A stretch of 64,000 nucleotides of DNA from a virus, in IMG/VR virus record IMGVR_UViG_3300047678_000094, positions 33,449 through 97,448 of that record. One strand, given 5' to 3'. Positions within the stretch are counted from its first letter, which is position 1; each line of letters begins with the position of its first letter. The translations under genes were made by a program, and so were the position numbers. Under the pieces are notes generated by a model that made no database searches, had not been told where the DNA came from, and saw nothing but the letters and a program-made list of their open reading frames with translations. This document shows, one piece after another, positions 24,098 to 61,869 of this stretch.

Positions 24098-24528
24098 TGA
24101 GTAACGATCTAGACAAAGCACTCAATGTAGCGCCAGCCAAAGACACCCCTCTTGTGCATGGGGAACTTGTTGTTCCTGTTGTAGAACAACTTCCAGCTGT
24201 CATTGATGCTGACTCTTCAGATGATAAAGAGGTGGATGAAGATTTCCAACTCGCCCGTGAAAACATAAAAGAATTGCTTGAGCAAGGCAAGGACGTCTTC
24301 GCTGAGATGCTCCAGGTCGCCAAACAATCGCAACATCCAAGAGCATTCGAGGTCTTAGGCAACCTCATGAAAATTGCGGTTGACACCAACAAAGACCTAT
24401 TAACGCTTAGAAAGCAAAAAAGGGAGTTGGTCAAGAAGACCGATGGGTCCCCAACTACGGTAAACAACAACCTGGTGTTGAGTACAGCCGATCTTCTCAA
24501 ATTGATCAAAAATCAGACTAATGAGTAA
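24097..24528 (+). CDS. 16: Small terminase subunit gp16
   Basis: The 143-residue protein shows the gp16 core: DEDFQLARENIKELLEQGK, then AKQSQHPRAFEVLGNLMKIA, then NKDLLTL. gp16 recognises DNA and regulates the gp17 packaging motor. The length is near that of T4 gp16. It overlaps the start of the terminase large-subunit gene by 8 bp, which is consistent with coupled synthesis. Confidence 0.9.
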   Translation: MSNDLDKALNVAPAKDTPLVHGELVVPVVEQLPAVIDADSSDDKEVDEDFQLARENIKELLEQGKDVFAEMLQVAKQSQHPRAFEVLGNLMKIAVDTNKDLLTLRKQKRELVKKTDGSPTTVNNNLVLSTADLLKLIKNQTNE

Positions 24529-25459
24529 CGAAAGACAATCATACTTAGGAAACCCGAAACTAAAAAGATCTAACGTCGCTGTCGAATGGACACCCCTTCA
24601 GTTGAAGGAGTACATAAAATGCTCGCAAGATCCAATTTACTTCATCCACAAATACTGTAAGATCATTCACGTGGACCGAGGCTTGATTAACTTCAAGCTG
24701 CACGAATTCCAAGAAGAGATGATCCGAACGTTCTCGGAAAACCGTTTCGTAATATGCAAGATGCCGCGTCAGGTGGGTAAGACCACGACGACAGCATCAT
24801 ACATTTTGTGGAAAGTTATCTTCAACGAATACACCAACGTCGCTATTCTTGCCAACAAAGACAAGAAGGCCCGAGAGATTCTGGACAGAATTCAGAAAAT
24901 GTTCGAGAACCTCCCAAGCTGGATGCAGCAGGGTGTTACAGAATGGAACAAAGGTAACGTTGAACTTGAGAACGGTTCTAAGATCGTTGCTACATCTACA
25001 TCTTCATCTGCCGCTCGTGGTGACACCTACAACCTTGTTTACCTTGATGAGTTTGCGCACGTTGAACGTAACATCCAAGACGACTTCTTCACATCCGTGT
25101 ACCCAACCATTTCATCGGGTGAAAAGACGCAGCTTATCATTACATCCACACCAAAGGGTATGGAGCTCTTCTACAAAATCTGGATTGATTCTGAAGAAGG
25201 TCGCAACAGCTACAAGCGCGTTGAGGTTCACTGGTCAGATATTCCTGGTCGTGACCAGAAGTGGAAAGAACAAGAGATCGCCAACACCTCGGAAGATAAG
25301 TTCCGCCAGGAATACGAATGTGTTGATGGAAAAACAAAAATAACCATTAGAAACAAGAAAACTGGTAAAACCAAGAAACTTACAATCAATAAATTTATAA
25401 ATATGATTGTAAGTTCCTCGGAGAACGAAGATGCACTACAGAAAAGTGTGGGAGAATAA
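24521..25459 (+). CDS. 17: Terminase large subunit gp17, N-terminal extein plus split-intein N fragment
   Basis: The 312-residue product carries the packaging ATPase: Walker A PRQVGKTT (Lys87), Walker B LVYLDEFAH (Asp176, Glu177) and motif III ITSTPKG. The terminase sequence stops after FRQEYE (residue 266). From Cys267 the sequence CVDGKTKITI is an intein start (block A), and it runs 46 residues to the stop. The missing nuclease half is encoded from 25993 after an HNH gene. The nucleophile Cys267 and the acceptor Cys in the second gene would rejoin the exteins as ...EYE-CEFLGS... by protein trans-splicing. Without splicing the ATPase domain alone would be made. Confidence 0.92.
   Translation: MSNERQSYLGNPKLKRSNVAVEWTPLQLKEYIKCSQDPIYFIHKYCKIIHVDRGLINFKLHEFQEEMIRTFSENRFVICKMPRQVGKTTTTASYILWKVIFNEYTNVAILANKDKKAREILDRIQKMFENLPSWMQQGVTEWNKGNVELENGSKIVATSTSSSAARGDTYNLVYLDEFAHVERNIQDDFFTSVYPTISSGEKTQLIITSTPKGMELFYKIWIDSEEGRNSYKRVEVHWSDIPGRDQKWKEQEIANTSEDKFRQEYECVDGKTKITIRNKKTGKTKKLTINKFINMIVSSSENEDALQKSVGE
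25319..25456 (+). other. Split intein, N-terminal fragment (IntN, 46 aa)
   Basis: Coding bases for residues 267-312 of the first terminase gene. It starts with the catalytic Cys and contains only the block A region plus a short helix (LTINKFINM). No block B motif is present, so the break lies between blocks A and B instead of at the canonical position after block B. This is the atypical layout that I recall for the AceL-TerL intein. Confidence 0.85.
25396..25403 (+). promoter_or_regulatory. Late promoter inside the intein N fragment, for the HNH gene
   Basis: A perfect TATAAATA sits 27 bp upstream of the HNH gene start at 25431, within the IntN coding sequence. CTCGGAGAACGAAG just before the ATG supplies a GGAGAA ribosome binding site. 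Confidence 0.6.
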
Positions 25460-26003
25460 ATTTGGAAAAATCCCAACCGATGAAAATGGATTTAAATATG
25501 AAATACACCACATAGATGGTAACAGAAAAAACAATTCTATTGAAAATCTACAATGTATAACAATTTTGGAACATCTTCAAATTCACATAAACCGTGGTGA
25601 TTGGGGTGCTGTTGCTCTCATTGGAAAGAGAATTGGTCTTGGACCAAAATATATGTCAGAAGTCCAAAGAGGTGTTAAACGCCTGGGAGTTGGCGGTGCT
25701 AAAAAAGGAAGAACACCTTGGAACAAAAACAAAAAAGGGTGTTTCTCAAAGGAAACAATTGATAAGTTTAAAACTTCCAGAAAGGGTAGAAGATTTTCGC
25801 CATTGAAAATTTCTGATTCTGATTGTCAAAAAATTATCTCATTGTATGCTAATAAACCAAAAATGGTTGGAGCTGGCAAGAAAAGCAAAAACGGTAGAAT
25901 AATGTCTTATGAGACAGCTTTCAGCAATTGTATTTCTAAAGAATATAGCGTTACTCCAAAACAAATATGTAACATAATAACAGGTAAACGTAATGTTCTA
26001 TAA
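25431..26003 (+). CDS. Free-standing HNH homing endonuclease between intein halves
   Basis: The 190-residue protein has an N-terminal HNH nuclease motif (YEIHHIDGNRKNNSIENL, residues about 24-41), then basic repeats (NUMOD-like GAKKGRTPWNKN and KTSRKGRRF), and a C-terminal DNA-binding helix-turn-helix-like segment. It overlaps the IntN-bearing gene by 29 bp and the IntC-bearing gene by 11 bp, so it is embedded exactly in the break of the terminase. It is the likely agent that mobilises the intein/terminase locus. AT content is high relative to the terminase exteins. Confidence 0.88.
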   Translation: MHYRKVWENKFGKIPTDENGFKYEIHHIDGNRKNNSIENLQCITILEHLQIHINRGDWGAVALIGKRIGLGPKYMSEVQRGVKRLGVGGAKKGRTPWNKNKKGCFSKETIDKFKTSRKGRRFSPLKISDSDCQKIISLYANKPKMVGAGKKSKNGRIMSYETAFSNCISKEYSVTPKQICNIITGKRNVL

Positions 26004-26316
26004 GAACGATAACTTTGAAATTCTAACACCAAGTGGCTTCAAAGAGTTTGCTGGTGTGCAGGAAGTTATCAAATGTGGTAAAATAGAACTGACGTTGAAC
26101 AATGGTAACAGATTAATCTGTGCATCCAAACACAACATTTTGACTGATAGTGGTTGGATTGAATCTGGAAAATTGAGAAGAGACAGCAAAGTAATTACCA
26201 AAGATGGTTTGGTCGGTTTATACCACATTGAACTTTTGGATGACGAACACACATTTTATGATATTGTCGGTGTTCCTAATTTTGAATACTATACTAATGG
26301 TATAGTTTCTCACAAC
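25993..26316 (+). other. Split intein, C-terminal fragment (IntC, 108 aa)
   Basis: Residues 1-108 of the second terminase gene. It holds the block B, F and G regions and ends in His107-Asn108 before Cys+1. Its opening MFYKNDNFEILTPSGF resembles the C fragment of the AceL-TerL intein, which sits at the same terminase site (from memory). Confidence 0.85.
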
Positions 26317-27180
26317 TGCGAATTCCTTGGTTCCGCCAACACCCTTATCCACCCTTCTAAGTTGCGCACATTAGCTTGGAAAAAACCAATCAAACAAAAC
26401 CATCTTGGGCTCAAGGAATACTATGAGCCTGATCCAAACACCGTATATGCGATGGTGGTGGACACGGCCCGTGGTGCAGGGGCAGACTATTCCGCATTCA
26501 TCGTGGTGAACGTTTCGACGTTCCCATACAAGATTGTCGCGACGTTTAAGAACAACACCATCTCACCATTGATTCTGCCAAACATCATTTACGAGACGGC
26601 TAAATACTACAATAATGCTTTGGTACTTGTAGAGACAAACGATATTGGTCAACAGGTAGCAGATATTCTACACTACGATCTAGAGTATGAGGGTATGCTT
26701 GTTTCTGCCATGTCTGGTCGTAACGGCCAGTCGCTATCTGGTGGTTTCGCAACGTCTACCCATAAAGGAGTGAGAACAACAAAACAGGTCAAGAGAATTG
26801 GATGCGCCACATTAAAGACGCTTGTTGAGTCAGACAAACTTATCATCGAGGATGCTGATGTCATTTATGAGTTAACGAGATTCGTGCTCAAAGGACAGTC
26901 ATATGAAGCTGAAGATGGTAATGATGATCTTGCTATGTGCTGTGTTCTATTTGGTTGGCTTTCTACTCAGTCATACTTACGAGAAATTACGGACCTTGAT
27001 GTTAGGAAAAAGATCTACGAACAAAACGAAAGAATGCTCGAAGACGAAATGCTCCCATTCGGGATCTTTGCCACCGGGGACGATGAAATAGACGAAAAAA
27101 TCAACGACGCTCCTACAGTTCTTGACCGACGTCCTAGAGACGAGTTCGGTGGGTTCTTTGGAAGCGCCGCAACAGACTAA
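25993..27180 (+). CDS. 17: Split-intein C fragment plus terminase large subunit gp17, nuclease half
   Basis: The first 108 of 395 residues are intein: ILTPSGFKEF, a block-B-like ASKHNIL, block F FYDIVGVPNFEYYTNG and block G IVSHN ending at Asn108. Residue 109 is the acceptor Cys, which opens the C-extein CEFLGSANTLI, the normal continuation of T4-like gp17. The C-extein (287 aa) has the RNase-H-like nuclease, with Asp157 in MVVDTARGAGADYS and the DGNDDLAMCC motif. The two exteins sum to about 553 residues, a normal size for the cyanophage-type enzyme. Trans-splicing is expected to be needed for a functional packaging motor. Confidence 0.92.
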   Translation: MFYKNDNFEILTPSGFKEFAGVQEVIKCGKIELTLNNGNRLICASKHNILTDSGWIESGKLRRDSKVITKDGLVGLYHIELLDDEHTFYDIVGVPNFEYYTNGIVSHNCEFLGSANTLIHPSKLRTLAWKKPIKQNHLGLKEYYEPDPNTVYAMVVDTARGAGADYSAFIVVNVSTFPYKIVATFKNNTISPLILPNIIYETAKYYNNALVLVETNDIGQQVADILHYDLEYEGMLVSAMSGRNGQSLSGGFATSTHKGVRTTKQVKRIGCATLKTLVESDKLIIEDADVIYELTRFVLKGQSYEAEDGNDDLAMCCVLFGWLSTQSYLREITDLDVRKKIYEQNERMLEDEMLPFGIFATGDDEIDEKINDAPTVLDRRPRDEFGGFFGSAATD

Positions 27181-47431: not shown

Positions 47432-48799
47432 GTGGTCAAGATTATTGTTGCAAAAACTAAGCACGACTGCGAACATCTTCTCGGGCAGTATCTTGATGAG
47501 TCGCACTTTGATACGCTTGTCACAGAAGATGTAGATTGCTATATGCCACCAGACTGCGACATCGCGACGCAAGCTCAATGTGGTGGAGATTGCGAAGTAT
47601 GTCCATCAGGAACAGATGAACGCCGCATCGCATTCAAATTCCGTAAGAATTACTTTTCGAAGAAACTGAGAGATCCTGCATATGAAGGGCTCAAGGAAGC
47701 TGCTACCGAGTCTCAAAATCGTGGACTGGCAGCTGGCCCACGCGGTGCTAGCCTTAGTGTCGATGGGCGTGGTGGTCGTGACTGGGTTACTGATTATGAG
47801 CTAGAAGTTCTTGACTTCTTCCTTAACGACACAAGTCGCCTGTGGGATGGACCCACCATTCCTGAGATCCGCGCCAAATACAAGAACAAAGCCAAGTCTG
47901 ATGAGACACGCGGTACTGTGTGGCTTCGTTCACAAGTAACCAAAGAATATCCCGAATACCACAATTGGTTTGATACTTGGGTTGATAAAATCAAGGAGCT
48001 TCCTCGTGATGAGCAAAAAGCCGCTGCTAAAATTGTCGCTGAAAAGTGGATTAGTTATACTAACTACGCTAAGTCTGTCTACTCTGGAGTCGCTGGTTGG
48101 TATGATAGGTATCCGCGTATCCCGTTTGGAAGAGCTACGTCTTACACTCGGGATAACCCTGAAAAATTCGCTCTCGCCTACCCATTCCTCCAAGCCCTAA
48201 ATAAAGGGTACAAGGATTTGATGCCGTGGCGTTGGGGAAACCAGAAGGCTGCGGCTGATAAATTGGATCAGAGATATCTGGTTCCAAAAACTGTCTTCAC
48301 CACAATCACAGTGAACAAGTCTTTCCGTACAGCAGCCCACCGTGACGCTGGTGACTTCCAAGAAGGTATCTCCAATCTTCTAACGCTCGGTGATGGTGAG
48401 TATACAGGTGGATACCTGATCTTCCCAGAGTACCGTATCGCCGTAGACGTTCGCCCCGGCGACCTGCTACTGGTAAACAACCACGAGATCATCCACGGTA
48501 ACACCGAGATTAAATTGAATCATCCAGATGCTGAACGCATCTCAATCGTGTGCTATTTTCGTGAAAAGATGCTTGAGCTTGGAAGTTTTGAATATGAGAA
48601 AACCCGTGAACAATATGTCGAAGATAGAAGAAAAAACAAAGACCACCCCGCTCAAAGACCTCTCTGGAACGGTATTACACCCGGAATGTGGGATGAACGA
48701 GAGTGGTATGACTATCTTGGGAGTAGATTGGGGGACGACGCCGTCCGTAAGTATCACCCGGATGCGTTTGCTTCCTCCCTTGATGCGTTTTTCGCGTAA
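47432..48799 (+). CDS. TET/JBP-like 2-oxoglutarate dioxygenase acting on DNA bases
   Basis: GTG at 47432 follows AAGGAGG. Residues about 290-390 of 455 form the TET/JBP-type double-stranded beta helix: His303-x-Asp305 (AAHRDAGD), EYTGGYLIFPEYRIAVDVRP, distal His355 (IIHGNTE) and Arg369 (ERISIVCY). These bind Fe(II) and 2-oxoglutarate. Phage TET-like enzymes are known to hydroxylate 5-methylcytosine in DNA, with glycosyltransferases extending the product. Two glycosyltransferase genes follow here. The N-terminal about 110 residues include a Cys cluster (CGGDCEVCPS) of unknown role. The last residues ASSLDAFFA resemble a sliding-clamp-binding tail and match the end of the GT4 protein encoded at 49297. 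Confidence 0.85.
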   Translation: MVKIIVAKTKHDCEHLLGQYLDESHFDTLVTEDVDCYMPPDCDIATQAQCGGDCEVCPSGTDERRIAFKFRKNYFSKKLRDPAYEGLKEAATESQNRGLAAGPRGASLSVDGRGGRDWVTDYELEVLDFFLNDTSRLWDGPTIPEIRAKYKNKAKSDETRGTVWLRSQVTKEYPEYHNWFDTWVDKIKELPRDEQKAAAKIVAEKWISYTNYAKSVYSGVAGWYDRYPRIPFGRATSYTRDNPEKFALAYPFLQALNKGYKDLMPWRWGNQKAAADKLDQRYLVPKTVFTTITVNKSFRTAAHRDAGDFQEGISNLLTLGDGEYTGGYLIFPEYRIAVDVRPGDLLLVNNHEIIHGNTEIKLNHPDAERISIVCYFREKMLELGSFEYEKTREQYVEDRRKNKDHPAQRPLWNGITPGMWDEREWYDYLGSRLGDDAVRKYHPDAFASSLDAFFA

Positions 48800-49296: not shown

Positions 49297-50643
49297 TTGA
49301 AAATTATGGTAGCTATGCACGACTTCAACAATTTTGGAGGCATCATCAATCACAACGAACAGTTAATTGCGGGTCTTAAGGATCTCGGTCACACCGTTAC
49401 GTTCGCTTATATCAAAACCACAACCAAGCCATCCTATTCTGTAGACACCTCAAAGGTTCCAGATGGATATGAGATTGGCGCTGGAACAGGCCTGCCTGTC
49501 CATCAAGGTAACGGATACATTTCTCCATACTACAGCATGAAGAATTCTGAGTCCGTCGCGAAATTCGTGAAGGATGCGAATGAACATGACATCCTTATCT
49601 GGCAGTCGATCTTCGGCTTCAAATCTCAAGCCACCGAGAAGGACAAAACATGGCTACCTATGATCGAAGGGGTATCCGCCAAACAGATAGCGGTTATACA
49701 CGACGGGAACCTAAAAAAGCTGTACAGCTGGATTTACCGTTTTGCGAATCACCTGGCAGGCCTAGCGTGTGTCCATCCGGCTGCTATGAAGCAAGCGGAT
49801 TTCATGCCTGTGCCTCGGAACATGATTCTGAACCCACAGGATGTCTCCGAGGTAGAAGTTGTCCCGTTCACCAAACGGAAAAACCAACTCCTAGCCCCAC
49901 AAACATTCAAACGCTGGAAGCGTGTAGACGACCTGGTTGCGGCGGTGCCATATATAGATGGTTCTGTTCTAATTGCCGGGGACGGTATGGAGCGAGCATA
50001 TATGGCTTCAGAAGAAAAATGCAAGCCTGAATACTACTGCACCAAAGAGCTTGACCCTGATGCTACAGAAGATCGCCTTGGTAAACGCATCTGGCAGAAC
50101 GCTCTTGATTCTGGAAAAATGGAATATCTAGGATTTATCACAGGTGCGTCCCGTGACAAAATACTAAATAACTCTAAGTTCCTCCTTGATCCCAGCTGGT
50201 CGCTGACGTACGGAGAACACTTTAACCGCTCTATCGTAGATGCTATGCGCGTAGGATGCGTGCCGATCGCTCGTAACTATGGTATTAGCGACAACGTTGA
50301 TGGAAACGGAACGCTCTTCAAGCCGGGTGTTAATTACCTGATGATTCCCCACGATGTTAAGCCGAAAGAGTTCGGTCGTCTCGTAAATGAGTGCTTCTTA
50401 ATTAGTCCCAGCGCATATGCCTACATGGTCGCTCAGAACAAGGAAGTGATCAAAAATTTCGACCGCGAAAAGATTGCGCAACAATTTGTCAATCTTGCTA
50501 TGGGCAAGAAAGGCAGTGGATATTATGAGAAGGCCGAAACTGGTCGTCTGAATATCGACAACAACGTGACCCAAAAAACGGGTGACAAAATCTGGGACGA
50601 ACACTTTGAAGTCCCTTCTTCTCTTGATAGCTTTTTTTCATAG
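49297..50643 (+). CDS. GT4-family glycosyltransferase with clamp-binding-like tail
   Basis: The TTG at 49297 has GGAG 7 bp upstream and gives MKIMVAMHDFNNFGGIINHN, a GT-B Rossmann start. The C-terminal lobe has LIAGDGMERAYM, a strand/helix with LLDPSWSLTYGEHFNRSIVD and AMRVGCVPIA, the usual GT4 donor-site Glu region. The 448-residue protein ends in VPSSLDSFFS, matching the end of the TET-like protein (ASSLDAFFA). It sits in the same cluster as the dioxygenase. The likely role is to glycosylate hydroxymethylated bases in DNA; glycosylation of other acceptors cannot be excluded. Confidence 0.82.
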   Translation: MKIMVAMHDFNNFGGIINHNEQLIAGLKDLGHTVTFAYIKTTTKPSYSVDTSKVPDGYEIGAGTGLPVHQGNGYISPYYSMKNSESVAKFVKDANEHDILIWQSIFGFKSQATEKDKTWLPMIEGVSAKQIAVIHDGNLKKLYSWIYRFANHLAGLACVHPAAMKQADFMPVPRNMILNPQDVSEVEVVPFTKRKNQLLAPQTFKRWKRVDDLVAAVPYIDGSVLIAGDGMERAYMASEEKCKPEYYCTKELDPDATEDRLGKRIWQNALDSGKMEYLGFITGASRDKILNNSKFLLDPSWSLTYGEHFNRSIVDAMRVGCVPIARNYGISDNVDGNGTLFKPGVNYLMIPHDVKPKEFGRLVNECFLISPSAYAYMVAQNKEVIKNFDREKIAQQFVNLAMGKKGSGYYEKAETGRLNIDNNVTQKTGDKIWDEHFEVPSSLDSFFS

Positions 50644-58812: not shown

Positions 58813-59316
58813 ATGTTTCCACTGATCAAACATATCGATGATGTGCTACCGCATATCGCTGACAAGCCCGAGATCGCTCGGATCGAAAAGGATGGGTACA
58901 CCGTTCTAGACTACATCTACGCTGGTGTCAGCACCTTTGACAACGCTTTCGCCCGCGAGTGCCGTGGCCTAAAGTTTGACTCACAAGGTAATCTGATCGG
59001 GCGACCGTTCCACAAGTTCTTCAATCTGAATGAGACTGAAGAAACGAAATTCGAAAACCAAGACTGGAGTCAGCAACTCTTTATTCACAACAAGTGGGAT
59101 GGTTCTATGATCCATCCGGCTCTTGTTAATGGTGAGCTTGTGTTCATGACTCGTAAGGGTGTAACTGATGTTGCGCTTCAAGCTATGTCTGAATGTGAAT
59201 ACGATGCGGATGAAATGATTCGTCATATTCGTGATGGGTTCACGCCTATCTATGAGTTCATCTCACCGAACAACAAAATCGTTCTTCACTACGACGAAGC
59301 TCGACTTGTGCCTTAG
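58813..59316 (+). CDS. rnlA: RNA ligase 1 (Rnl1), N-terminal part up to an in-frame amber codon
   Basis: The 167 residues match T4 RNA ligase 1. CRGLKFDSQGNLIGRPFHKF and FNLNE precede nucleotidyl-transferase motif I NKWDGSMI with Lys94 as the AMP acceptor; YEFISPNNKIVLHYDE is motif IIIa. Translation meets TAG at codon 168, exactly where the aligned T4 enzyme has a Leu, and the same frame continues with matching sequence. Motifs IV and V lie beyond the stop. Alone this half cannot be an active ligase. The gene is either broken by one base change, read through, or expressed as two pieces. Confidence 0.85.
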   Translation: MFPLIKHIDDVLPHIADKPEIARIEKDGYTVLDYIYAGVSTFDNAFARECRGLKFDSQGNLIGRPFHKFFNLNETEETKFENQDWSQQLFIHNKWDGSMIHPALVNGELVFMTRKGVTDVALQAMSECEYDADEMIRHIRDGFTPIYEFISPNNKIVLHYDEARLVP

Positions 59317-59319
59317 AAT

Positions 59320-59922
59320 ATGCGTCATAGAGAAACTGGTGCTTACAATCGAGATCGTTTCCAGAATAACGCTGTTCATCTTGTGCAAAACGTTTCATAC
59401 TTTGAAACTCTTCTACAGCAAGTTAAAAGCAACACCGGTCTAGAAGGTATTGTGATTCAGTTTGATAAGCCTTCGCGGTTTATCAAGTTCAAGGCGGATG
59501 ACTACGTTGCTATGCACCGGGTCCTTGATGAAACCGCTCACGAAAAGCGGGTTCTGGCTTTGATCATGGATGACAAACTGGATGATGTGATTCCGCTTAT
59601 TGCTCCGGAACGTGCGGAACACCTGAAGACTTACGCCGCTGTTGTCAATGAATCTCTACTTCGTGAAGCGAATAGAATTTACACTTATGTTCATTCAACA
59701 CAATACATGTCACAGAAAGAGTTTGCTGAAGTTGTTCAACGCGATTTTATAAAGCCTGAACAAAGCTTTCTCTTTAGAGCTAGAACTCTTGAATTTCTTG
59801 ATACATATTCTATTCTTGTTATGCTCAAGGAATTCTTCAAGAAGACGCTAACGACGCAAGTTAAAGTTGATTCTTGGAGAGTATTTCTTGGCTACCCCAA
59901 GTTTGAAATGCAAGTTGACTAA
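59320..59922 (+). CDS. rnlA: RNA ligase 1 (Rnl1), C-terminal part after the amber codon
   Basis: In the same frame as the upstream half, an ATG lies one codon after the TAG (TAGAATATG). The 200 residues continue the Rnl1 alignment (MRHRETGAYN aligns with VRENETGEY of T4), include motif IV EGIVIQF and motif V FIKFKADDY, and have a C-terminal tRNA-recognition domain. The immediate ATG allows termination-reinitiation, so a two-chain ligase is conceivable. The joined product would be 369 residues (T4: 374). Confidence 0.8.
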   Translation: MRHRETGAYNRDRFQNNAVHLVQNVSYFETLLQQVKSNTGLEGIVIQFDKPSRFIKFKADDYVAMHRVLDETAHEKRVLALIMDDKLDDVIPLIAPERAEHLKTYAAVVNESLLREANRIYTYVHSTQYMSQKEFAEVVQRDFIKPEQSFLFRARTLEFLDTYSILVMLKEFFKKTLTTQVKVDSWRVFLGYPKFEMQVD

Positions 59923-60335: not shown

Positions 60336-60412
60336 TGCGGGGTAGAGCAGCGGTCAGCTCGCCAGTTTCATAAGCTAGGAGGTCGGTGGTTCGAATCCAC
60401 CCTCCGCAACCA
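60336..60412 (+). tRNA. tRNA-Met/Ile2 (anticodon CAT)
   Basis: Acceptor TGCGGGG/CTCCGCA, D-arm GAGC...GCTC, anticodon loop TTCATAA, T-arm GGTGG-TTCGAAT-CCACC, A and encoded CCA. The body resembles initiator tRNA in the D-arm, but the three G-C pairs of an initiator anticodon stem are missing and the stem has a C-A mismatch. The amino acid identity (Met or lysidine-Ile) is unresolved. Confidence 0.85.
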
Positions 60413-60419
60413 AAATTGA

Positions 60420-60496
60420 TGGCGCGTAGCATAGTTGGTCTAATGCAACGGTCTCCAAAACCGTGATCACCGGTTCGAATCCGGTCCCGCCTGCCA
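60420..60496 (+). tRNA. tRNA-Trp (anticodon CCA)
   Basis: D-stem GCAT/ATGC, anticodon arm ACGGT-CTCCAAA-ACCGT, T-arm ACCGG-TTCGAAT-CCGGT, G and encoded CCA. The acceptor stem TGGCGCG/CCCGCCT has two mismatches (positions 1-72 and 6-67). Confidence 0.85.
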
Positions 60497-60535
60497 TTAT
60501 TAAGCATAGTTAATGAAGAAAGTTTCAAAAACTGC

Positions 60536-60564
60536 TTGCTTCTTTCCCATTCTCGGGGTATACT
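60536..60564 (+). promoter_or_regulatory. Sigma70-like promoter of the large structured RNA
   Basis: TTGCTT (60536-60541) and TATACT (60559-60564) are separated by 17 bp, directly upstream of the 1-kb non-coding structured region. Confidence 0.65.
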
Positions 60565-60569
60565 GATGA

Positions 60570-61566
60570 TACTGAGACGAAAGAGTAAAGCTCTATCAAA
60601 AACGTCAGTAACAAAACTAAGAGTAATTTTATGATCTGAAAATGGAATATTGGGTCGTTTAGGGTCCAACCTTCGGGTGAAGAATAAGCATCGTGAGATG
60701 CCCAAAGCGGTGAAGTCTACATAACCGCGCCAATTAAATGGTTCGTCTAAACAAGCCTGCTCAAACCCGAAAGGGTTCCTTCGTGTCGACTGCGGAGGTA
60801 TGAGTGAAGGTGGTGTTGAGGAAAGAACCGTCATCCTAACTGACAAGGAAGGATGCGGAAGACTGGATTGGTACCCGGCTCTCAGCGACCAAACCATCGA
60901 ACTCGGATGAGGAATGGTAGTGAGTTTGTGTAAGGGGTTGCACCCAAATGCTTGCTCGCAATGTTAAAGGTAGATGGCTCAGGCCATAGATCTTGAAACA
61001 TGACTGAGTAGCCCGCAAGGCAAAAGGTACGAGGCGTGTTGTATTTGGTATCTAACAAGGTACTGAGCAACTGAAGTAGCACGTCTTAGTAGATTCAATC
61101 AAGATGCTCATCGGTAGGGCGTCAGCTTTTTAATGCTGAAGGAAGTTGGTTCAAACCCAACCTCGATTATCAAAAAACGCAAAGTCTACTTCGGTTATAT
61201 GTGAAAGACACCTAATACTCGGATCCGCAAGGGTAACTGAGTCCAGCGAAACTCGCAAGGTCTAGCTGGTTGAGGACAGAAGGTTCGTAGGGAGTTAGCG
61301 CTCTCGAATAGCTCGCAAGGCTAACGGAATGGAAGACCTCGAATAGCATATAGCGACAAGTCTAATGCCTGACTTTAAAAACGGCGGTGTTGATACGATA
61401 CGGTGCTACTTCTACAGGGTGCCGTGGATGTCGGGAGAATAGTAGCTCGCAAGGCTTCTAATAATGCCCGGAGTTGTATCACTAGAGGGAGTAATCTCAT
61501 CCCTTCGTAAATTTGTGGCGCCGCTCTTGAATGGTCCATGGTCCATGTGCCACGGGGCGGCGCCAA
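60570..61566 (+). ncRNA. Large ornate structured RNA candidate (GOLLD/ROOL-like), about 1 kb
   Basis: No plausible gene lies between the tRNA-Trp and 61583. The region has its own promoter and dense hairpins with stable tetraloops: ACC-TTCG-GGT (60669-60678), GCATC-GTGA-GATGC (60688-60701), AACCC-GAAA-GGGTT (60764-60777), CATCCT/AGGATG (60832-60855), ATGGC-TCAG-GCCAT (60974-60987), ATCC-GCAA-GGGT (61223-61234), CCAGC/GCTGG (61243-61269), GTTAGC/GCTAAC (61294-61325). It closes with GGCGCCGC/GCGGCGCC (61517-61564). CGCAAG recurs five times (61014, 61226, 61254, 61314, 61448). A tRNA cloverleaf is embedded at 61097. Size, tRNA association and phage context match GOLLD or ROOL RNAs, whose function is unknown; the family match is untested. 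Confidence 0.65.
61097..61172 (+). tRNA. tRNA-Lys-like cloverleaf with 8-nt anticodon loop, inside the large RNA
   Basis: Acceptor AATCAAG/CTCGATT (one A-C mismatch), D-stem GCTC/GGGC with GG in the loop, anticodon stem TCAGC/GCTGA enclosing an eight-base loop TTTTTAAT, T-arm GTTGG-TTCAAAC-CCAAC, discriminator A then TCA instead of CCA. A TTT anticodon (Lys) is the simplest reading, but the extra base is unusual. It may be a structural mimic within the RNA and not a working tRNA. Confidence 0.55.
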
Positions 61567-61582
61567 GCCATTTGGAGTTATC

Positions 61583-61792
61583 ATGTTTGAATACGAGCTT
61601 GAATTCTATAAAGACGATGTGAAGCTGAAGACGACGAATTTCACCGCCAGTGGCCAGGATCTTACTATGGAAGAAGTAGCCGGACAGGTGTATCGTCTCT
61701 CAATGGTAGCAGGATACGATCGGGACTATGACACGGTCATTGTTTATGATCCTTCTGGAACCAGAAACTACAGTATTGATTTGGTAGAATAG
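61583..61792 (+). CDS. Small hypothetical protein
   Basis: The ATG at 61583 follows TTTGGAGTT. The 69-residue product (MFEYELEFYKDDVKLKTTNF, VAGYDRDYDTVIVYDPSGTR) looks like a small beta-rich acidic protein. An upstream in-frame ATG at 61538 lies within the closing stem of the structured RNA and is not preferred. Function unknown. Confidence 0.55.
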   Translation: MFEYELEFYKDDVKLKTTNFTASGQDLTMEEVAGQVYRLSMVAGYDRDYDTVIVYDPSGTRNYSIDLVE

Positions 61793-61795
61793 TGC

Positions 61796-61869
61796 ACGCG
61801 AGTAGCTCAATGGTAGAGCATTGCACTGATAATGCAACGACGTGAGGTTCGATTCCTTCTCTGTCCGCA
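61796..61869 (+). tRNA. tRNA-Ile-like (anticodon GAT), acceptor stem poorly paired
   Basis: D-arm GCTC-AATGGTA-GAGC, anticodon arm TTGCA-CTGATAA-TGCAA and T-arm with TTCGATT are all clear. The acceptor ACGCGAG against TCTGTCC pairs badly and no CCA is encoded (GCAA follows). It is either a decayed tRNA-Ile or a tRNA needing repair. Confidence 0.5.

Follow-up and report, generated by a model that had tools for sequence, protein, structure and literature searches.

A phage GOLLD RNA with a tRNA-like domain in its linker, and a possible role for that domain as a decoy

The locus

The window analysed here is a stretch of 64,000 nucleotides, positions 33449-97448 of a 97,448-base IMG/VR virus record. 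Its structural genes are of the T4-like, contractile-tailed phage type (portal phrog_213, major head protein phrog_138 and a tail sheath), and a clamp loader and an SbcCD-like nuclease are also encoded. The region of interest, 60536-61566, lies within a cluster of tRNA genes, with neighbouring Pro, Leu, Met and Trp tRNAs called by ARAGORN. As a preliminary description of this DNA had stated, no credible gene is present in this stretch of about 1 kb: the only ORFs are overlapping antisense frames, none of them plausible, and a protein-coding gene is ruled out.

The same description had proposed a large non-coding RNA resembling GOLLD or ROOL or, failing these, a new large RNA class, and had named in advance a cmscan search against the two Rfam models as the check. 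That search settles the matter in favour of GOLLD. RF02032 aligns end to end at 61031-61503 (model 1-416, all 416 positions) with 200.7 bits against a cut-off of 150 (E 3.7e-55), whilst the ROOL covariance model finds no match within 60400-61700 even at E values up to 1. Because the GOLLD match is complete and well above the gathering score and ROOL is absent, we identify the region as a full-length GOLLD RNA of a phage. ROOL, which shares with it size, phage origin and tRNA neighbourhood, is ruled out, and the end-to-end match likewise excludes a new class. Several general traits of GOLLDs are present: the RNA is borne by a phage with T4-like structural genes and lies near tRNA genes, its 3' domain contains a variable linker of the kind that sometimes holds a tRNA (here within the RF02032 match) and there is a separate, less conserved but structured 5' domain. 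The features of the locus are as follows.

60536-60564, + strand: promoter-like hexamers TTGCTT (60536-60541) and TATACT (60559-60564), 17-nt spacer, read directly; weak
60571-60652, + strand: possible 5' leader with a small hairpin, from folding and alignment; not conserved in relatives
about 60653-61030, + strand: GOLLD 5' domain, tRNA-slot subclass, from homology to the phage GOLLD L039 and covariation in 12 sequences
60904-61030, + strand: 3' end of the 5' domain, matched by model R1, with the terminal GAGTAGCCCGCAAGGC... hairpin
61031-61503, + strand: GOLLD 3' domain (RF02032)
61073-61079, + strand: linker-closing helix, 5' strand GAAGUAG, seven pairs, covariation in 32 sequences
61097-61169, + strand: tRNA-like domain in the GOLLD linker (RF00005, 44.4 bits; not called by ARAGORN)
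61127-61134, + strand: eight-nucleotide 'anticodon' loop UUUUUAAU, from structural parsing and the cmscan alignment
61186-61192, + strand: linker-closing helix, 3' strand CUACUUC, same covariation set
61290-61305, + strand: hairpin GGGAG-UUAGCG-CUCUC at the L21a place, from its position in relatives and its self-complementary core
61517-61564, + strand: GC-rich hairpin with an 8-bp stem (61517-61524 / 61557-61564), read directly and from folding

Other parts of the window also deserve mention. The terminase large subunit gene is seemingly split between ORFs 24521-25459 and 25993-27180, about 530 bases apart, which match positions 262-453 and 450-626 of phrog_2; there is no Rfam intron match, and an intron, an insertion or a frameshift are all possible. 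A TET/JBP-type 2OG dioxygenase (47432-48799) is followed by a glycosyltransferase-like protein (49297-50643, below the Pfam cut-off), a pair that suggests hypermodification of phage DNA bases. A T4-RnlA-like RNA ligase gene (58813-59922) contains an in-frame TAG at 59314-59316, its two halves matching consecutive parts of phrog_562, which may reflect read-through, a pseudogene or a sequencing error.

Motifs, folding and transcript ends

Some of the sequence features first noted in the region hold up better than others. The CGCAAG element does occur five times (61014, 61226, 61254, 61314 and 61448), far above the mean of 0.28 in dinucleotide shuffles (maximum 3), and the GC-rich 8-bp stem and the embedded tRNA cloverleaf are also there. 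'At least eight' hairpins with GNRA or UUCG loops was too generous, since five remain under a strict rule of 4 bp or more (shuffles: mean 0.7, maximum 4), and so was 'a good sigma70-like promoter', as the hexamers agree with the consensus at 8 of 12 positions, fall below the promoter-scan threshold and are not listed by the scanner. When single-sequence folding is compared with shuffles, the 5' domain gives z = -3.2 and the 3' domain z = -1.1, so that the folding energy of the latter is not in itself exceptional; firm support for the RNA comes from the covariance model and covariation rather than from folding energy.

The GC-rich hairpin begins 13 nt past the end of the GOLLD model and is not followed by a U run. 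Since some other GOLLDs of the tRNA-slot type have a hairpin or terminator-like element at the same place, the transcript probably ends here, the hairpin being a candidate terminator or end stabiliser. A terminator scan inside the GOLLD RNA matched the tRNA-like region only, no better than in shuffles. A 10-nt inverted repeat (61073/61403) was also considered and set aside, being at about chance level for 1.1 kb.

The 5' domain and the tRNA-slot subclass

The Rfam model covers only the 3' half of GOLLD, leaving 60653-61030 unmodelled. This part of the window is 65% identical over 339 nt to the upstream region of L039 (E 7e-32, in a database limited to some 40 upstream regions); several more relatives align. 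RNAalifold predicts 76 pairs across 12 phage GOLLD 5' domains, 64 of which show compensatory changes, meaning that in one or more sequences both partners differ and still pair.

From the last ~125 nt of these 12 sequences we built a covariance model, R1. It matches the window with 105.5 bits, although the window is one of its training sequences and this match is not independent. More telling is that, among held-out GOLLDs, R1 matches immediately 5' of the 3' domain in 19 of the 22 with a linker tRNA, including those of Caulobacter phages, DSS3_MAL1 and mycobacteriophages, and in only one of 24 without (XacN1), a contrast (Fisher p 8.5e-9) between groups that were gathered by different sequence patterns and that contain related, non-independent phages. 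GOLLDs near the Rfam consensus (about 300 bits) carry other 5' ends. These two observations lead us to recognise a tRNA-slot subclass of GOLLD. We consider it highly probable that the window RNA belongs to it, its parts being this 5' domain, the Rfam 3' domain and, in the linker, a tRNA-like domain; that confidence covers identity and anatomy only, and the decoy function discussed below is a separate and much more tentative step.

The env-38-like loci show no match to the window 5' domain by blastn or by R1 (which represents the last ~125 nt only), and the window does not have a 5' domain of the env-38 type. The GOLLD 5' domain is described in the literature as divergent, and the mismatch separates a subtype without excluding membership of the GOLLD family.

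Several loci collected during the search fell outside this picture: three contigs found with the tRNA-slot patterns (L092, L096 and L097) proved not to be GOLLD, and two RNA-ligase relatives (L055 and L058) have tRNAs and no GOLLD in the stretch examined. In DSS3_MAL1, XacN1 and CcrKarma, GOLLD has a permuted tmRNA (RF04321) nearby (L034 4546-4962; L035 2631-3050; L033 3199-3517, minus strand).

The linker and its embedded tRNA

The tRNA-like domain is set off from the rest of the 3' domain by a 7-bp helix that is unbroken in all 32 slot GOLLDs compared, with both-sided changes in five of the seven pairs. Across the linker region of the same 32, 25 of 34 predicted pairs show compensatory changes. 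Such changes preserve the D, anticodon and T arms, and the consensus prediction contains no acceptor stem. Elsewhere among GOLLDs the place of the tRNA is taken by an unstructured linker or a hairpin.

Direct counts in 36 embedded tRNAs, with arms parsed automatically (poorly for the Bongo-type linkers L082, L083 and L085; L093 was set by hand), show where the acceptor stem is lost. The four inner pairs are mostly retained, whilst the three outer positions are paired in 14, 17 and 22 of the 36. All three outer pairs are present in 3/36 embedded tRNAs compared with 196/218 free tRNAs from the same contigs; put the other way, outer pairs are broken in 33 embedded and 22 free tRNAs. The contrast holds for the 29 embedded domains that ARAGORN calls as tRNAs, two of which are complete. 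A CCA is encoded by two of the 36 (L091 has ACCA) and by 151 of the 218 free tRNAs. The anticodon arm is better preserved: the loop has 7 nt in all but six cases (6 or 8 nt), U33 is kept in 26 of the 30 seven-nucleotide loops (the other four having G, A or C) and a purine at 37 is mostly preserved.

In the window copy, the loop UUUUUAAU resembles a Lys-UUU loop with one extra U. Six of seven acceptor pairs form, including the three outer ones, with one A-C mismatch elsewhere in the stem, which makes this copy less degenerate at the outer acceptor than most embedded tRNAs. The domain is followed by AUCA instead of CCA, and the 7-bp acceptor, 7-nt loop and CCA of a functional tRNA are all wanting. 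CCA can be added after transcription. A second tRNA-like sequence (61800-61861; 44.9 bits over model positions 5-66 of 71, and likewise missed by ARAGORN) lies about 300 nt past GOLLD and its acceptor end looks truncated too.

Several embedded domains have entered the databases as tRNA genes. The 'tRNA-Lys', 'tRNA-Arg', 'tRNA-Gly' and 'tRNA-Leu' of L033, L034, L037 and L084 are in fact the tRNA-like parts of unannotated GOLLDs, and the phiCbK and CcrKarma GOLLDs are annotated in GenBank solely as tRNA-Gly and tRNA-Lys. GenBank entries for phage 'tRNA genes' should thus be treated with caution, as some are pieces of GOLLD RNA.

Anticodon turnover

The 36 embedded domains contain at least 17 different triplets, including unusual AUG anticodons in L039 and L054. 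When disjoint pairs at least 0.80 identical in the tRNA body are compared, one of seven embedded pairs shares its anticodon, as against all 23 free pairs (Fisher p 1.2e-5), a contrast that weakens (p 0.05-0.07) once the cut-off is lowered to 0.65-0.70. The clearest case is that of 14 Caulobacter phage records in which the tRNA body is identical and five adjacent loop bases (33-37) take three forms: UCUUA in the Karma group, GUCCU in the phiCbK group and AUCCU in BL57. Karma and phiCbK differ at five of seven loop bases with a fourfold-site divergence of 4.2%, which under independent neutral changes has P about 3e-6, a figure that would carry less weight had the changes come in a few clusters; with small indels permitted, the five differences possibly represent three mutational events. 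Comparison of these sequences shows that the anticodon of the linker tRNA changes independently of its body.

Since free Lys-CUU and Gly-UCC tRNAs are encoded elsewhere in both Karma and phiCbK, the embedded forms are redundant for codon supply and fill no codon gap. One free tRNA has also switched: that at L100 12509-12586 / L113 12635-12712 is Gly UCC in phiCbK and Arg UCU in CcrKarma, three bases apart. This is a recent anticodon switch outside GOLLD, and switching per se is therefore not GOLLD-specific. Pairing of the anticodon loop within its own GOLLD was examined as an explanation and rejected, as complements are about equally common in other GOLLDs (loop-complementary 6-mers in 14 of 29 own GOLLDs against 11.9 expected from cross comparison).

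Cage assembly

The env-38 GOLLD has been solved by cryo-EM as a 14-mer nanocage with the linker pointing into the closed interior (PMC12286853); cage formation has been shown for other GOLLDs only. One contact in such cages is the self-complementary kissing loop L21a (bridge B8). The window has a self-complementary UUAGCG loop at 61290-61305, whose mapping onto env-38 numbering is inferred, and env-38-like GOLLDs have GGCC cores at the matching loop. The loop agrees with assembly, without proving it. We infer that the window RNA folds into a hollow homo-oligomer like the env-38 14-mer; if it does, many copies of the tRNA mimic would sit inside the cage. That env-38-like GOLLDs have no match to the R1 part of the window 5' domain counts against this picture.

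What might the embedded tRNA do?

The domain is probably a caged, non-decoding mimic rather than a working tRNA. Our proposal for its function is a tentative one: the caged mimics may act as bait for host factors that read anticodon arms, anticodon nucleases being an example, with the triplet tracking whichever host enzyme the phage encounters. The anticodon-loop architecture would then be kept whilst the triplet turns over because the decoy faces changing host enzymes. A kept anticodon arm, a changing triplet and, usually, no normal acceptor end are more easily reconciled with a bait than with a tRNA used in translation. It has been suggested that the anticodon loops of phage tRNAs evolve under pressure from anticodon nucleases, loop mutations in free phage tRNAs being seen as nuclease escape (PMC10264068). 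A T4-RnlA-like RNA ligase and a polynucleotide-kinase-like protein are encoded within about 4 kb upstream of GOLLD; such enzymes repair cleaved tRNA-Lys in T4-like phages (PMC10264068), and these neighbours may lend circumstantial support to an anticodon-nuclease theme. Several points tell against a decoy, however: the window copy retains its three outer acceptor pairs, no loop has been matched to an anticodon nuclease target, the free Arg UCU/Gly UCC tRNA switched in the same two Caulobacter phages and the Caulobacter loop changes are perhaps only three events. In addition, GOLLD was reportedly dispensable for phage production in L. brevis (cited in PMC7567579).

The alternative that survives best is a structural one: inside the cage, the tRNA would fill out the linker or help it to fold, and its anticodon loop would drift freely. 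We regard this as plausible, if short of probable. It would account for the preservation of the closing helix and tRNA arms whilst the loop varies, and it sits well with a linker that tolerates variation to the extent that other GOLLDs have unstructured or hairpin linkers. Free drift does not, however, predict that U33, purine 37 and the 7-nt length should be mostly preserved, nor, unless changes were clustered, the extent of the Caulobacter loop difference at so low a divergence.

It is rather unlikely that the domain serves to dock GOLLD on ribosomes or tRNA-handling proteins through elbow recognition, for instance in ribosome storage or silencing late in infection, with the anticodon being secondary. 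The D and T arms are well preserved and GOLLD has reportedly been pulled down with ribosomes (as cited in PMC12286853), but the linker of the solved GOLLD faces the closed cage interior (PMC12286853) and docking leaves the anticodon turnover unexplained. Least probable of all is an ordinary phage tRNA, excised from the GOLLD transcript by RNase P and other processing enzymes to supply codons: the frequent U33, the ARAGORN calls, the GenBank annotations as tRNA-Lys, -Gly, -Arg or -Leu and the ACCA of L091 speak for it, but the broken outer acceptor stems, the rarity of CCA, the 6- and 8-nt loops, the four loops without U33, the AUG anticodons of L039 and L054, the free Lys-CUU and Gly-UCC tRNAs in both Caulobacter phages checked and the failure to detect a product of the Mycobacterium pseudo-tRNA by Northern blot (PMC6582537) all speak against it.

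Relationship to known GOLLDs and outlook

With env-38 (PMC12286853) the window RNA shares the end-to-end 3'-domain match, a phage location near tRNAs, separate 5' and 3' domains, a variable linker and a self-complementary loop at the L21a position. It differs in the R1 part of its 5' domain, which the search did not detect in env-38-like GOLLDs (those of about 300 bits), and in having a tRNA-like domain with a 7-bp closing helix where env-38 has a short disordered linker loop. Mycobacterium and mycobacteriophage GOLLDs (PMC6582537) likewise lie in a tRNA cluster with a pseudo-tRNA within the GOLLD gene, but their loops differ (UGA, UAG, GGA, 8 nt); in mycobacteriophages Bongo and Estes R1 recognises the 5' domain weakly, this domain being much more divergent. 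The phiCbK and CcrKarma GOLLDs have the same architecture and an R1 match, with 70% identity between the Karma group and window positions 61006-61187, and differ in loop sequence and outer acceptor pairs.

Whilst tRNAs in some GOLLD linkers have been published (PMC12286853, PMC6582537), neither the slot subclass and its 5' domain nor the absent outer acceptor stem and the turnover of the anticodon is described in the literature searched. These four features are apparently new, with priority uncertain as the first description of GOLLD (2009) and the 2020 survey of Mycobacterium GOLLDs lay outside the search.

GOLLD was still of unknown function in the 2025 cryo-EM study (PMC12286853). Taken at its broadest, our proposal is that a widespread subclass carries a caged mimic that cannot be charged in the usual way and whose loop diversifies as bait for anticodon nucleases of the host or other anticodon-reading defences, which would make GOLLD an RNA-only counter-defence; we think this possible but doubtful. 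The comparison nevertheless provides a testable clue: the putatively caged tRNA swaps its anticodon faster than its body, keeps the shape of the anticodon arm and usually has no normal acceptor end. If this clue holds up, a loop swap in a laboratory Caulobacter phage could reveal what the cage is for.
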